DNA of 64,000 nucleotides from Sulfurisphaera ohwakuensis. GTDB taxonomy: Archaea > Thermoproteota > Thermoprotei_A > Sulfolobales > Sulfolobaceae. The position numbers and the translations under genes are program-made. Location: the NCBI RefSeq assembly GCF_009729055.1, contig NZ_CP045484.1, forward strand, positions 1,054,001 through 1,118,000, given 5' to 3'. This document shows, one piece after another, positions 17,870 to 23,211 of the stretch (position 1 is the first letter of the stretch; each line of letters starts with the position of its first letter). The notes below the pieces were generated by a model. That model did no database searches. It saw nothing but the letters and a program-made list of their open reading frames with translations, and had not been told where the DNA came from.

Positions 17870-18071
17870 ACAGTGTAGTTTTTTATAATGATAGTTTTTG
17901 ATGTTAAAATAAAATCTATTCAGTAGGTTATAGCTATCTATGAATATTTTTTAATTTGATGGTTTAATTTAATGAAAGCTAATTATAAGAATTTTTCTTA
18001 GCAATATTACGATGACAATTAGGTCGTTATTTATCATATTAATAAGTAAATGAAAAACAATTAGAATAAAA

Positions 18072-18152
18072 GAGATAAAAAATAAACATCTTTCATGATC
18101 TCCATTTACATCCACTATCAGATGCCGTAGAACTTAATATTGAAGAACTATC
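18072..18152 (-). pseudogene. Decayed copy of the Ser/Met-rich peptide gene 3' end
   Basis: This stretch aligns base by base with the 3' end of the gene at 22954-23211, including the shared flank (taaa-atctttcatgat) and the tccgtagaactt-like Ser codons. The minus-strand reading from the TGA at 18093 keeps several Ser codons but soon meets stops, and no N-terminal half remains. It is therefore a relic of a duplicated gene lying 4.9 kb from the intact copy. The rest of 17870-18566 holds no gene I can support. A short GC-richer piece at about 18230-18290 may be another relic. Confidence 0.6.
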
Positions 18153-18416
18153 CCTTTAGATTCTATTAGTGCTGGAATACTTCCTAATTGGAAAAATATG
18201 GTCAAGAGTGAAACTGAAGCATAAGTCTTCGGACAATGGCATGGCTAGCTCTATTGTCAGACCGAACATTGTGAGGAAAAATCCATCTATATAGATCTAC
18301 GGAAGATTTTCTTAATAATTTTTTATATTAGTTGCAAAGAATAAATTAAGGTACCGAAAGTGAACTAATGACTGAAATAACAAGACATATTTCGTATTGT
18401 CGAATGTTATTTTCTC

Positions 18417-18566: not shown

Positions 18567-18953
18567 TCATGAAATCTCAATGAAAATCGACCTCCACAGA
18601 TCTTCTAATTTAATTCTTCTGTAACCAAACTCTTCATATACATGATCAAAGCTTACTATTTCAGTTTCAGAAAATGCAGTGTGGAAAGCATCAAATACTT
18701 CCATACCTTGTGATATAAGAATTGAGGCTCTTAAGATCCTTTCATCAAAGCTTCTAGTAATCTCCATAACAGATGCAGTAATCATAACTGGGTCTAAACC
18801 GAATTTCCTACTTAGTAACATTAGCTCTAAATATGTAGTTAAGGAAGTCGTTATGTTGTCCTTATATTCTCTTAGAACTGCTAAAGCTTTTTCTTTTAAC
18901 CAATCTTTGTTCTTCAGTAATGCAAGGAAGAAGTCAGTATCAGCGTAAACCAA
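18567..18953 (-). CDS. vapC: VapC-type PIN-domain toxin
   Basis: A 128-residue PIN-domain RNase. Acidic metal-binding residues are in the expected order: D5/D7 (YADTDFFLAL), E in TYLELML near residue 43, D in VFDAFHTA near 88 and D in VSFDHVYEEF near 101. The frame starts at TTG (18953), overlapping the vapB stop at 18940-18942 by 14 nt. VapC toxins cleave RNA and are held inactive by VapB. Here the vapB frame upstream is interrupted, so either VapC is tolerated, is inactive, or is controlled by a related antitoxin elsewhere. Confidence 0.85.
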   Translation of the reverse strand: MVYADTDFFLALLKNKDWLKEKALAVLREYKDNITTSLTTYLELMLLSRKFGLDPVMITASVMEITRSFDERILRASILISQGMEVFDAFHTAFSETEIVSFDHVYEEFGYRRIKLEDLWRSIFIEIS

Positions 18954-19177
18954 TTTCCTTCTCAGCCTCTTCCCTAATTATTTTCTTCAACTCCTTAATG
19001 TCAAGGTTGGGCAACTTTTTCCCCTCATCTTCCAATGTCTTAATCGGATCTTTTACCCTAGGGATCAACATTATCCCATAAGGTTAATTCCACAATGTAA
19101 AATTCTTTTGAATCAATCTTTTCCCTAATCTCTTTTGGCAAATAAATTCTCCCCTTATTATCAATCTTAACTATCAT
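18940..19177 (-). pseudogene. vapB: VapB antitoxin (AbrB type) with a +1 frameshift
   Basis: The gene starts at the ATG at 19177 with the AbrB/SpoVT swapped-hairpin sequence MIVKIDNKGRIYLPKEIREK. After FYIVEL one extra A at about 19083-19088 shifts the frame and a TAG follows at 19058. In the neighbouring frame the expected toxin-binding half is readable without stops (PYGIMLIPRVKDPIKTLEDE... to EIGLR) and ends at the TGA at 18940, overlapping vapC. So the only lesion visible is one base. It could be a real mutation, a sequencing error, or be rescued by slippage. Confidence 0.8.
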
Positions 19178-19446
19178 AATTTCAGTATAGTAGGGAAAAA
19201 TCTTTTTTCCCCAAAGATTTTACATCTAAAACCATATGTTTATAAAATAGAGAGAATAAACGAAATAAATATTCGTAACCCCAATTGAGCCTAGATTCCT
19301 TTACAGCTAATAAATAGTGTGCAGAGACAGAGATATGAATCCCCAAGCTCGAAGGCATTCAGTAATAAATCTTTTAGATTATAATGAACATTTACTTTTA
19401 ATTTAACTCTTTATCTATTCAAAACTCTTCAGAGAAAGTTTAATCA

Positions 19447-19525
19447 ATTTTAAAATTAGAATAAAAATATATAATCTTTATATCTTCTCTAATATAAGAT
19501 TTTAAAATTAGAATAAAAATATATA
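19447..19525. repeat. Tandem 27-bp direct repeats carrying TATA-like boxes
   Basis: The same 27 bp (attttaaaattagaataaaa then atatata) occurs at 19447-19473 and 19499-19525, a period of 52 bp. Each copy ends in a TATA-like tract, and the second copy is positioned as the promoter of the peptide gene at 19552. They may be a duplicated promoter or a regulator binding site. The rest of 19178-19446 shows nothing I can support. Confidence 0.8.
19516..19525 (+). promoter_or_regulatory. TATA box of the putative RiPP operon
   Basis: aaaatatata is centred about 30 bp upstream of the ATG at 19552. This spacing predicts a leaderless transcript starting at that ATG and argues against the in-frame ATG at 19540, which lies too close to the TATA box. 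Confidence 0.5.
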
Positions 19526-19551
19526 GTGAAATATCTATTATGGGGACATAC

Positions 19552-19683
19552 ATGAAAAACGAAATTTGCATAGAACAAATTTCAATAATAGCAAGAGAAA
19601 TTTTAGGTAAACAAGAATTAATAAGTTTGCTACCAAGAATAGATCCTACTACCCTCACTATAAATACAAACTCACCAGATTGA
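19552..19683 (+). CDS. Putative RiPP precursor peptide (43 residues)
   Basis: A short ORF starting MKNEICIEQISIIAREILGK and ending TTLTINTNSPD. Its TGA (19681-19683) overlaps the ATG of a radical SAM gene, and a good TATA box sits at leaderless distance. The first half is an amphipathic, leader-like helix. The second half is rich in Thr, Asn, Pro and Asp, like a core peptide. It has a single Cys (residue 5) in the leader half, so it is not an ordinary sactipeptide. I see no homology to a known precursor; the assignment rests on position and size. An in-frame ATG at 19540 would add four residues. Confidence 0.6.
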   Translation: MKNEICIEQISIIAREILGKQELISLLPRIDPTTLTINTNSPD

Positions 19684-21245
19684 TGGTGGCTAAAGTTATG
19701 ATTTATATATTAGATGATATTGATAGTCTGAGAAGTAATTCGATTCCTAATGATTTCAAATTAGTAGCCATAAATGTAAAAACTTTCATAAAATATAATA
19801 GTGAAATTGAGAAATTATTAAAAAATAATAGAATATTTAAGTTATATATTTTGTTCAATGATAATGACATTATTAATTTTAATTCTTATGACAATTTATC
19901 AAAAATGAAAGATACATTAATTAAAATTTCAAAAATAAAAACATTAAATGGATTTAAAAATGAATTTGTCTTTATGATTTCACAAAAATATGATATTGAA
20001 GCCATTAGAAGAATATTATTCCTATCCGAATCTAGATTATACAATTTTGCTATTTTTGTGATTAATATGAAATCAATAAAAGAATATGACCTAGAAATGC
20101 TTCTTACTTCGGATGTAATAAATAATAATCTATCTGAAGTTATATTGGTAGATGATAAGACAGTTTGGCCAGGGAGACATTTCAGATTTGTAAAGCAAAT
20201 ATCTAATGAGGAATATCTTTTCTATAAGAATCCGTTTTTTATAGATTTTAAAGGTAAACTCACAGATCTAATTTCATTAGAAGCTCTTAAAAAAATTTAT
20301 CAATATTATGCTTCAGTAAGTCTTAGTGATAGTTTTAGATATTGGAACTTTAAAGGGATAGTAATAGAACTTACCTACAAATGTAATTTCTCTTGTGATC
20401 ATTGCTATGTAAGTTCTTCTCCTCAAAGAGGTGAGATACTAGAACTTAATAAAATTTACAAAATTCTAGAAGAAGCTCTAAACTTGCCCTTTATAGATAA
20501 GAAAGTTCATATAGCTGGAGGAGAAGTAACATTATTTTGGGATAAGTTAGTAGAATTGATTAAGTTTTCAAAGTCTTTAGGATATATTGTAACATTAGTA
20601 ACCAATGGAAGTTGGGCTCTAAATGAAAGTAAAGTCAAGGAATTAAAAGAATTGAAAATAGATGAGATCGAATTAAGCCTTACGCCATATCATTTAAAAT
20701 TCTGGAATAATAAAGATAATATTTTAAAGATGTTAAATAACTTAAAGAAATATAATTTAAATTTTTTTATCAGATTTCTTACAAGTAAATCAAATAAGAT
20801 ATACGATTTATATAAACTTTTAGGAAATGAGCTTTTAGGAATACCTATAATTTCTTCTCCAGTGTTAAGATTAGGAAGAGCCTTATCAAATCTCCCACCT
20901 AATGAATTTTATGGTGATAATAAATTACCTAGTGGAGCTTGTTTTGACTCCTTAAATTTAACTATAACTCCTAATGGAGTATATCCTTGTTGTAATGGTT
21001 CGGAAATCACTAAATATGGTAAATTAGGCTCTCTAGATGAATCTCTGAAAGATATTCTCAATAGAAACTATTTTTTAAGGCTTCTTACATTAATAGGGCC
21101 TTCGAGATTATTAAAAGAGTTAAAACTAGATTATAAATACAAAAACAAAGAATATTCTAGTATTTGTGAATTATGTAGTGAAATATTAAATGATGATGAG
21201 GTTTATAATAAATCATTAGAGTTAATTAGAGGAAGATTAGGGTGA
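19683..21245 (+). CDS. Radical SAM peptide maturase with SPASM-like C-terminus
   Basis: A radical SAM enzyme of 520 residues. The [4Fe-4S]-SAM motif CNFSCDHC is near residue 234, followed by the GGE motif (HIAGGEVTLFW). After the barrel, Cys-rich segments (GACFDSL, GVYPCCNGSE, SICELC) resemble a SPASM/twitch auxiliary cluster domain of peptide-modifying enzymes. The first 220 residues have no motif I know and could bind the peptide. The ATG at 19683 overlaps the peptide stop, so expression is coupled; a TTG at 19680 is less likely. An ABC exporter follows. I infer post-translational modification of the upstream peptide. Confidence 0.85.
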   Translation: MVAKVMIYILDDIDSLRSNSIPNDFKLVAINVKTFIKYNSEIEKLLKNNRIFKLYILFNDNDIINFNSYDNLSKMKDTLIKISKIKTLNGFKNEFVFMISQKYDIEAIRRILFLSESRLYNFAIFVINMKSIKEYDLEMLLTSDVINNNLSEVILVDDKTVWPGRHFRFVKQISNEEYLFYKNPFFIDFKGKLTDLISLEALKKIYQYYASVSLSDSFRYWNFKGIVIELTYKCNFSCDHCYVSSSPQRGEILELNKIYKILEEALNLPFIDKKVHIAGGEVTLFWDKLVELIKFSKSLGYIVTLVTNGSWALNESKVKELKELKIDEIELSLTPYHLKFWNNKDNILKMLNNLKKYNLNFFIRFLTSKSNKIYDLYKLLGNELLGIPIISSPVLRLGRALSNLPPNEFYGDNKLPSGACFDSLNLTITPNGVYPCCNGSEITKYGKLGSLDESLKDILNRNYFLRLLTLIGPSRLLKELKLDYKYKNKEYSSICELCSEILNDDEVYNKSLELIRGRLG

Positions 21246-21293
21246 TTAAAAATAATTGAGGTTAACCACGTTTCTAAATCCTTTAACGGTAAC

Positions 21294-22049
21294 GTGATTA
21301 ATGAGGATGTAAGTTTTAAGTTTGATCGTGGAATCTTAGTGATTCTAGGACCTAACGGCGCTGGTAAAACTACATTATTAAGGCAAATTTACGGTGATTT
21401 AAAGTGTGATAAAGGAGAAATTCTTATAGATGGATTTAAACCTAATGAAAGAAGGGCTAAGAAGCTTTTAGGGATAATGCCTCAAAATGCAGAGCCAATT
21501 TTTAACCTCACTGTATATGATCACATTAAGCTCTTTGCTAAGATGAGAGGAATCAAAGGTAATGATACAAAGATTAGAGAGATGATTAAGCTTTTTGACC
21601 TTGATCCTAAGAAGAGGGTTAACAATTTATCTGGAGGACAGAAGAGGAAAGTGATGTTGACATCAGTTCTAGCTCTAGAGCCAAAATATTTTATCTTGGA
21701 TGAACCTACTGTAGGGCTCGATTTAGAATCAAGAAATATAATTCACGAGATACTTATTAAGTTATCTAAGGAAGGGAAGGGCATAATCTTAACTACGCAT
21801 TATCTGGAAGAGGCTGAAAAACTTGCAGATAGTGTAATCCTCTTCAACAGAAGAATTCTCTTTGACGGTTCAAAGGAAGAGCTTATAAGGAAAGTATTCA
21901 ATGAAGATATTTACGTAGTTAAGGTAGGAGATAAAAAGCTCTTTATAAAGAAGGAGGAGATAAGCAAATATATTTATTTAAATGACATAGAGATAAGAAG
22001 GCCCACATTAGAGGAGTTGTATTATGAGTTTTTCGGAAAGAGTAACTGA
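21294..22049 (+). CDS. ABC transporter ATPase, N-terminal frame problem
   Basis: An ABC ATPase with Walker A GPNGAGKTT, Q-loop (MPQNAEP), signature NLSGGQKRKV, Walker B FILDEPTVGLD and H-loop (TTHYLEEAE). The first start codon in frame is GTG 21294, which omits the usual first strand. That strand is encoded just upstream in the same frame (IIEVNHVSKSFNGN), back to the radical SAM stop at 21243-21245, without a start codon. A GTG at 21242 would give it (MIKIIEVN) if the A5 run at 21248-21252 had four As. So there is probably a one-base slip. It likely exports the modified peptide or confers immunity, with the permease at 22024. Confidence 0.85.
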   Translation: MINEDVSFKFDRGILVILGPNGAGKTTLLRQIYGDLKCDKGEILIDGFKPNERRAKKLLGIMPQNAEPIFNLTVYDHIKLFAKMRGIKGNDTKIREMIKLFDLDPKKRVNNLSGGQKRKVMLTSVLALEPKYFILDEPTVGLDLESRNIIHEILIKLSKEGKGIILTTHYLEEAEKLADSVILFNRRILFDGSKEELIRKVFNEDIYVVKVGDKKLFIKKEEISKYIYLNDIEIRRPTLEELYYEFFGKSN

Positions 22050-22755
22050 ATTTGCGACACTAATAGAACTCTTCCTAAAAAGGAACGGAAGGGTTAGGAA
22101 TGTAGTTAATATGCTTTTTAGTGATGTAATATATCCCTTAGGTCTTTACTTCAGTATTTCAAAGTTAATTTCGCCTAATGAACTAACCTACTTCTTATCT
22201 GGCCTTTTAGTTCTCTTCACTACAACATATGTTATGAATTTTGTCTCAGCTTGGCTCGGAATGGATAAGGCTTATCATTATTATCCCATAATACGCTCTT
22301 TAGGACCATCAATATTGGAATATAGCTTAGCTTTGATATTCGTAGTATTAATTACTTCAATGCCTGGAGTAATAGTAATAACTTTAATGACGTTTAAAAG
22401 CATCTCCTTACTTTTACTAGCCCTCCTAGTAGTTTTGACCTCTGCACTTATGTCAGGGTTTATTTCGGCCTTCCTTGTTATAATAATTAGTGAGTACACA
22501 GTAACTACTGTGTTTACTGGCATATTCTCTTATGTAATTTCTGTCTTCCCACCAATATTTTATCCATCATCTCTACTTCCCTCACCGTGGAGGTTAATTC
22601 TTAGCTACGTTTATACTGCTGAGGCAGCAGATACTTTAAGAGCATTATTACAAGGTGACTTAGTAGCGTTCTTCTCTTATTATTATGTTCTATTAATATA
22701 TCTATTAGTATTAATTTTAGTCTTTGTTCTATATCTAAATAGTAAAAATTACTAG
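22024..22755 (+). CDS. ABC-2 type permease
   Basis: A 243-residue membrane protein with about six hydrophobic segments, the layout of ABC-2 permeases that partner drug or peptide export ATPases. Hydrophobic stretches are at about 18-60, 60-85, 95-125, 125-155, 165-185 and 215-240. Its ATG lies 26 nt inside the end of the ATPase gene, so the two are coupled. With the peptide and radical SAM genes it completes a four-gene set comparable in order to Bacillus yydF-yydG-(yydH)-yydI-yydJ; no protease gene is present here. Confidence 0.8.
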   Translation: MSFSERVTEFATLIELFLKRNGRVRNVVNMLFSDVIYPLGLYFSISKLISPNELTYFLSGLLVLFTTTYVMNFVSAWLGMDKAYHYYPIIRSLGPSILEYSLALIFVVLITSMPGVIVITLMTFKSISLLLLALLVVLTSALMSGFISAFLVIIISEYTVTTVFTGIFSYVISVFPPIFYPSSLLPSPWRLILSYVYTAEAADTLRALLQGDLVAFFSYYYVLLIYLLVLILVFVLYLNSKNY

Positions 22756-22953
22756 CTTAATAAATGCGGAGAAAAATACAATTTATAGATTAAAATATAT
22801 TTCGTAGATCTCTTTAATTCCCTTATTTAACTCACTTTCAACATCTTAAGTTAAAACTTATTACTCCTTAAGCCTATAACTGAAATAAAAGTAGAGAGCA
22901 AGGTCTAAGGTTAATAAGTATAATAATTAAAGTAAAGAAAAAATAAATATCTT

Positions 22954-23211
22954 TCATGATCCCCAGCTATATCCGCCACCAGATCCCGTAGAACTTGATG
23001 TGGAGGAACTACCCATATTAGAGGTTGAGCTATTACTCATATTAGACGTCGAGGAACCCATCATAGAAGAACTACTCATTGATGAACTAGACATCATTGA
23101 CGAATTGTCTGCTGAAGAATGATGCAAGACAACAGCACCTACTACAACAGCTACAACTACTATCGCTATTACTCCTCCTATTATTCCCGCAAGCCTCTTA
23201 TTTATCTTCAT
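22954..23211 (-). CDS. Small membrane-anchored Ser/Met-rich secreted protein
   Basis: An 85-residue protein with a basic N-terminus (MKINKR), one hydrophobic segment at about 8-30, and then a tail made almost only of Ser, Thr, Met, Asn and Gly, ending GGGYSWGS. The tail should lie outside the membrane. Ser/Thr-rich stretches in Sulfolobales surface proteins are often glycosylated, and Met-rich tails can bind copper, but neither is shown. It diverges from the molybdoprotein gene at 23324. A decayed copy lies at 18072-18152, and a similar design occurs at 49492-49704. Confidence 0.65.
   Translation of the reverse strand: MKINKRLAGIIGGVIAIVVVAVVVGAVVLHHSSADNSSMMSSSSMSSSSMMGSSTSNMSNSSTSNMGSSSTSSSTGSGGGYSWGS

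Follow-up and report, generated by a model that had tools for sequence, protein, structure and literature searches.

The closest described counterparts of the locus analyzed here are the epipeptide loci of Bacillus, Macrococcus, Staphylococcus and other bacteria (yydFGHIJ, or epeXEPAB), in which a peptide gene is followed by genes for a radical S-adenosylmethionine (SAM) enzyme, a protease, an ATP-binding cassette (ABC) ATPase and an ABC permease. In the epimerase EpeE (YydG), Cys223 supplies the hydrogen atom that completes epimerization, and a second [4Fe-4S] cluster contributes to regenerating this residue (reviewed in PMC5682303). Radical SAM enzymes also introduce D-residues into ribosomal peptides via a Cys hydrogen donor in proteusins and related polytheonamide-type products (PoyD, OspD); proteusin epimerases are described as having no second cluster and no significant homology to EpeE (PMC8326336). 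No modified ribosomal peptide from Sulfolobaceae turned up in the literature searched. Here, we describe a predicted run of four genes at 19540–22755 (+) of a 64,000-nt stretch of the Sulfurisphaera ohwakuensis genome (NZ_CP045484.1, positions 1,054,001 to 1,118,000; herein referred to as the window), encoding a small peptide, a radical SAM enzyme, an ABC ATPase and an ABC-2 permease, each located where an earlier note on this DNA had placed it. With modest confidence, we read this run as an operon for a ribosomally synthesized and post-translationally modified peptide (RiPP), in which the radical SAM enzyme would epimerize the peptide and the ABC pair would export it or confer immunity.

The radical SAM enzyme (520 aa; 19683–21245, +) provides the strongest evidence, and the kinship of its catalytic part (residues 224–509) with the YydG/EpeE family is well supported by sequence comparison. 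The best match among 18,950 NCBIfam models is TIGR04078 (YydG peptide epimerase; 128.2 bits, E 4.3e-37, 299 of 309 positions); the second model reaches 56 bits and, like those of other radical SAM families, covers the radical SAM core alone. A sequence search of the PDB returned Bacillus subtilis YydG/EpeE as nearest (8ai1–8ai6, E 6e-22), followed by a tetraether synthase (5e-6), and EpeE also took the top nine places in a Foldseek search with a poor single-sequence model. In phylogenetic trees, the enzyme falls with YydG-like enzymes as opposed to PqqE-like radical SAM proteins (support 99/96 and 100/99), and a clade uniting it with bacterial YydG was not rejected (p 0.35). Its TIGR04078 score is the highest of the archaeal matches found (130.5 bits vs. 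≤116 for the others), and no archaeal enzyme found here is closer to the epipeptide epimerase. A viperin reading, raised by PADLOC matches, was rejected (core only, with scores far below YydG).

The radical SAM and SPASM-like part (residues 224–510; 20352–21212, +) retains the cysteines on which the chemistry of EpeE depends. The radical SAM [4Fe-4S] motif CxxxCxxC (C234, C238, C241) and four candidate auxiliary-cluster cysteines (C420, C436, C495, C498) align with EpeE, in agreement with the SPASM-like cysteines noticed earlier, and C437, the second Cys of VYPCC (codon 20991–20993, +), aligns with EpeE Cys223, the residue changed in the C223A chain 8ai3. Of the two chemistries previously proposed, epimerization or C–C cross-linking, this correspondence favors the former, and we keep the latter as a lesser rival. 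The small open reading frame (ORF) could instead be the substrate of some other radical SAM modification (a C–C or C–O cross-link, a thioether at Cys6 or other alpha-carbon chemistry), as the low identity to EpeE (about 24–30%), the change of Asp210 to Asn and an extra N-terminal domain might suggest; we consider this quite unlikely, given that a Cys at the Cys223 position argues for hydrogen return, and that the only Cys of the peptide (position 6) is near its N-terminus and would be a poor site for a thioether core. The presence of this one Cys corrects the earlier description of a peptide with no core cysteine.

The candidate precursor, MKNEICIEQISIIAREILGKQELISLLPRIDPTTLTINTNSPD, is encoded by 43 codons from the ATG at 19552 (19552–19683, +), or by 47 from the ATG at 19540, and its stop codon (TGA, 19681–19683) shares its last base with the ATG of the radical SAM gene, forming the TGATG overlap reported in the earlier note. 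Of dinucleotide shuffles of the upstream 234 nt, 0.12% contained an ATG-initiated ORF of ≥43 codons that terminates at this TGA, and a chance origin is unlikely (p about 0.001). Within the 64-kb window, to which our ORF statistics (GC content, overlaps and codon scores) refer, 5 of 35 long ORFs are overlapped at their start by an upstream ORF of at least 30 codons, the other four of which are gene-sized (90–288 aa). The codon score of the peptide ORF is unremarkable (rank 14 of 47 similar ORFs), codon usage being uninformative at 43 codons. We thus take the ORF to be probably coding because of its length, overlap and promoter, and not because of codon usage or conservation.

A 27-nt perfect direct repeat precedes the ORF in tandem (19447–19525, +; copies at 19447–19473 and 19499–19525, at a spacing of 52 nt), both copies terminating in the TATA-like stretch AAAAATATATA; a genome-wide search at up to three mismatches found these two copies and no other. 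The pair is probably the promoter or regulatory region of the operon. Going by archaeal promoter spacing, a TATA box at about 19515–19525 would place the transcript start at about 19540–19552 and yield a nearly leaderless peptide mRNA.

The locus thus has the general composition of a RiPP operon, a short putative precursor ORF adjoining a maturase and an export or immunity gene. The same arrangement could arise if the enzyme acted on another substrate (a protein, lipid or small molecule), the ORF being a short upstream or regulatory frame or a product of chance and the ABC pair a generic multidrug or lipid transporter. The peptide has no relative and an ordinary codon score, YydG-like enzymes do occur beside an aldehyde ferredoxin oxidoreductase (AOR) gene (G400, L095), and the ABC pair is DrrAB-like; however, the ORF is improbable by chance, it carries the TGATG overlap and its own promoter repeats, and the nearest characterized kin of the enzyme is a peptide epimerase. 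We regard this explanation as unlikely.

Several findings weigh against an epimerizing RiPP operon of the epipeptide type. The score of 128.2 bits is far under the TIGR04078 equivalog cut-off of 300 bits, and by the equivalog rule the enzyme is therefore not a YydG ortholog; it sits on a long branch whose exact place in the tree is not fixed; EpeE Asp210, mutated in 8ai6, corresponds to Asn425; and the CC motif also occurs in radical SAM enzymes with non-RiPP-like neighbors (G400/G517), so that the motif is not proof of peptide epimerization. A search of 211 genomes of the order Sulfolobales with the peptide returned itself only (all else at E ≥0.08), and comparison with NCBIfam and Pfam gave no match; as the peptide has no relative, it is position alone that suggests a substrate role. 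Its polar C-terminus (TLTINTNSPD) differs from the hydrophobic cores of YydF and of other archaeal candidates. No gene for a YydH/EpeP membrane peptidase is present between 19447 and 22755, and the first gene is not a YydF-family precursor, since the NDLWYFVKS...RWI-type core of YydF has no counterpart in the peptide (by visual comparison with the L083 YydF gene). Added to this are a transporter of Sulfolobales stock, with an irregular ATPase start, an additional N-terminal domain of 222 residues and an archaeal host. The proposed likeness to the bacterial yydF-J architecture accordingly holds for gene order and enzyme kinship, and fails for the peptidase, the precursor core, the ABC pair and the equivalog score; the operon is best read as working like an epipeptide locus while standing outside it in those four respects. 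It is likewise distinct from the proteusins, whose NHLP leader and V/A-rich core are both missing from the peptide and whose enzymes are set apart by their description in the literature.

The ABC transporter pair is present, with an irregular start of the ATPase gene. The ATPase (about 21246–22049, +), assigned by PF00005, its motifs and its paralogues, has its nearest relatives among DrrA-like ATPases in the ABC pairs of Sulfolobales (208–182 bits, a paralogue from the same genome among them), versus 25 bits to YydI. The permease (243 aa; 22024–22755, +) matches PF12698 below the cut-off; it has relatives at 21–31 bits among the ABC-2 permeases of the same Sulfolobales pairs and no match to YydJ. 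Because the relatives of both proteins are Sulfolobales pairs and not YydIJ, the transporter was most likely, judging from these similarities, recruited from local stock. The ATPase frame is that of the enzyme and begins right after its stop codon, with no in-frame ATG, GTG or TTG before 21294, and a start at the in-frame GTG 21294 would drop the conserved first strand (KIIEVNHVSKSF), which is encoded upstream. A GTG at 21242–21244 overlaps the stop codon of the radical SAM gene, and its frame, followed across an A5 run (21248–21252), is off by one base. The irregularity could reflect an assembly error, slippage or a real lesion.

The N-terminal domain of the enzyme (residues 1–222; 19683–20348, +) has no match in Pfam, NCBIfam or the PDB, and a Foldseek search with its low-confidence AlphaFold2 model (pLDDT 54) found nothing meaningful; it is probably an alpha/beta domain with a beta-rich/helical tail. 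In a check for a PqqD-like RiPP recognition element, residues 150–224 gave no match to a hidden Markov model, and the pattern of residues 165–213 is only vaguely similar to such an element. No close relative of the full enzyme was recovered from the GTDB contig collection (two scans) or from viral contigs (one scan); phage records held no relative, and plasmids held only bacterial YydG and remote radical SAM enzymes. The sole relative of the N-terminal domain in the sampled order (211–214 genomes) and phylum (398) is a relic in G196, which belongs to another Sulfolobaceae genus (L005, 1150–1990, –). This relic of the domain and the radical SAM enzyme is about 44% identical over about 250 residues, has stops and frame changes, lacks the central Cys of the radical SAM motif, has its remainder deleted, adjoins a VapBC pair and has no peptide left upstream. 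In the collections searched, the peptide and the full-length enzyme are unique to this genome, bar the peptide-less relic. A single fused protein of peptide and enzyme was considered and rejected, as similarity to the relic begins at the start of the enzyme itself.

The operon forms an accessory island that was recently gained. It is not found in three congeneric genomes: in G206, the flanks are 95% identical and nothing lies between window positions 18153 and 22925 (an empty site); G205 (flanks 93/89% identical) lacks 19356–22880 and carries other cargo, including a different VapBC; and an ATPase gene and a helix-turn-helix gene occupy the slot in G204. The slot, variable across the four species (different cargo in three, empty in one), is edged by an imperfect direct repeat of about 98 bp (80% identity; 18065–18162 and 22925–23022), the right copy being the 3' end of a Ser-rich gene. 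Of 44 long ORFs in the window (median GC content 32.9%), the radical SAM gene is the poorest in GC (25.4%). The Ser-rich gene itself (22954–23211, –) encodes a small, conserved, Ser/Met-rich protein with a membrane anchor and the C-terminal sequence GGGYSWGS; it was rejected as the true precursor because it sits in the flank shared with the operon-less G206. A VapBC-like pair lies at 18567–19177 (–), its antitoxin seemingly split into overlapping frames (18940–19071 and 19058–19177). VapBC genes also accompany the G196 relic and are found in the slot of G205, but they look unalike by eye, and we treat them as hotspot cargo and not as part of the system.

The degraded relic, the absence of the operon from the three congeners, the irregular ATPase start and the adjoining split vapB might together indicate that the island is decaying, or was recently wrecked, and now has no function. 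This seems very improbable, as the radical SAM gene reads through 520 codons without interruption and retains all of its functional Cys residues, the permease is intact, and a one-base homopolymer difference may be an assembly error or recoding.

TIGR04078 also matches enzymes in other archaea, including one on a Halocatena plasmid, and in a well-supported clade of these an unannotated small ORF often lies directly upstream, with a V/A-rich C-terminus (e.g., ...VVPAVAVVAVVVVAVEIAGAWHIFGAWGHIIAVAIYS... in L093 and ...AACSVAAACVAVVAVAVYNTAGAAVNVVAAVAVETYVGVT in Halocatena, L086). Eight loci (L036, L037, L086, L087, L088, L089, L093 and L094) share with the window a CC-motif radical SAM enzyme and a small ORF directly 5', and one (L037) also has an ABC ATPase–permease pair nearby; they differ in having no N-terminal domain, peptides of 80–179 aa with V/A-rich C-termini, a form that the window peptide does not have, and mostly twin-arginine translocation (TAT)-type and membrane proteins instead of the ABC pair. 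Seven such ORFs were located (L089 6160–6417, –; L093 6062–6352, –; L094 5692–5934, –; L086 3416–3955, +; L087 6166–6648, –; L036 6984–7244, +; L037 9423–9758, –), most of them directly upstream of the radical SAM gene. Upstream in several Thermoproteota loci is a gene for a TAT-signal-like protein, and downstream one for a membrane protein. The small ORF of G310 matches a family of NHLP-related RiPP precursors (E 1e-4, short of the family cut-off). V/A-rich cores recall the alternating-D cores of polytheonamide. The peptide-like ORFs directly upstream support a RiPP role for the archaeal YydG-like enzymes, and the V/A-rich ORFs with their enzymes are a candidate for an undescribed archaeal class of epimerized RiPPs. 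YydG-like CC-motif enzymes with no adjoining small peptide were also observed (L095 4326–5270, –; L096 4954–5886, –), one of them beside an AOR-like gene.

We hypothesize that the 43-aa precursor would be bound by the enzyme, perhaps via the orphan N-terminal domain, and that the radical SAM cluster would generate a 5'-deoxyadenosyl radical that abstracts the alpha-hydrogen of at least one aliphatic residue, most likely Ile, Leu or Val in the C-terminal half of the peptide. C437 would return a hydrogen atom from the opposite face to leave D-residues, and the auxiliary cluster would reset the resulting thiyl. The leader may be cleaved off by a host protease, and the DrrAB-type transporter would export the product or protect the producer. 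Epimerization is mass-neutral, and the search for mass shifts suggested in the earlier note would therefore miss the product. More tentatively, the operon could represent a new class of archaeal epimerized peptide, with a YydG-like enzyme bearing its own orphan substrate-binding domain and no dedicated peptidase, within a wider undescribed archaeal set of which several members have Val/Ala-rich, polytheonamide-like cores.

The operon may make a modified antimicrobial or signaling peptide of a kind new to Sulfolobaceae. A role in strain competition could be shared with archaeal antimicrobials such as the sulfolobicins, which are larger proteins and are not known to undergo radical SAM maturation. 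The three sequenced operon-less congeners make a producer-versus-sensitive comparison possible. The other archaeal pairs of YydG-like enzyme and peptide may prove a bigger lead than the operon itself. If our reading is correct, Sulfolobaceae make ribosomal peptides with D-residues, radical SAM epimerases extend to thermoacidophiles and include a thermostable member, and a larger archaeal family of YydG-like peptide systems is indicated.

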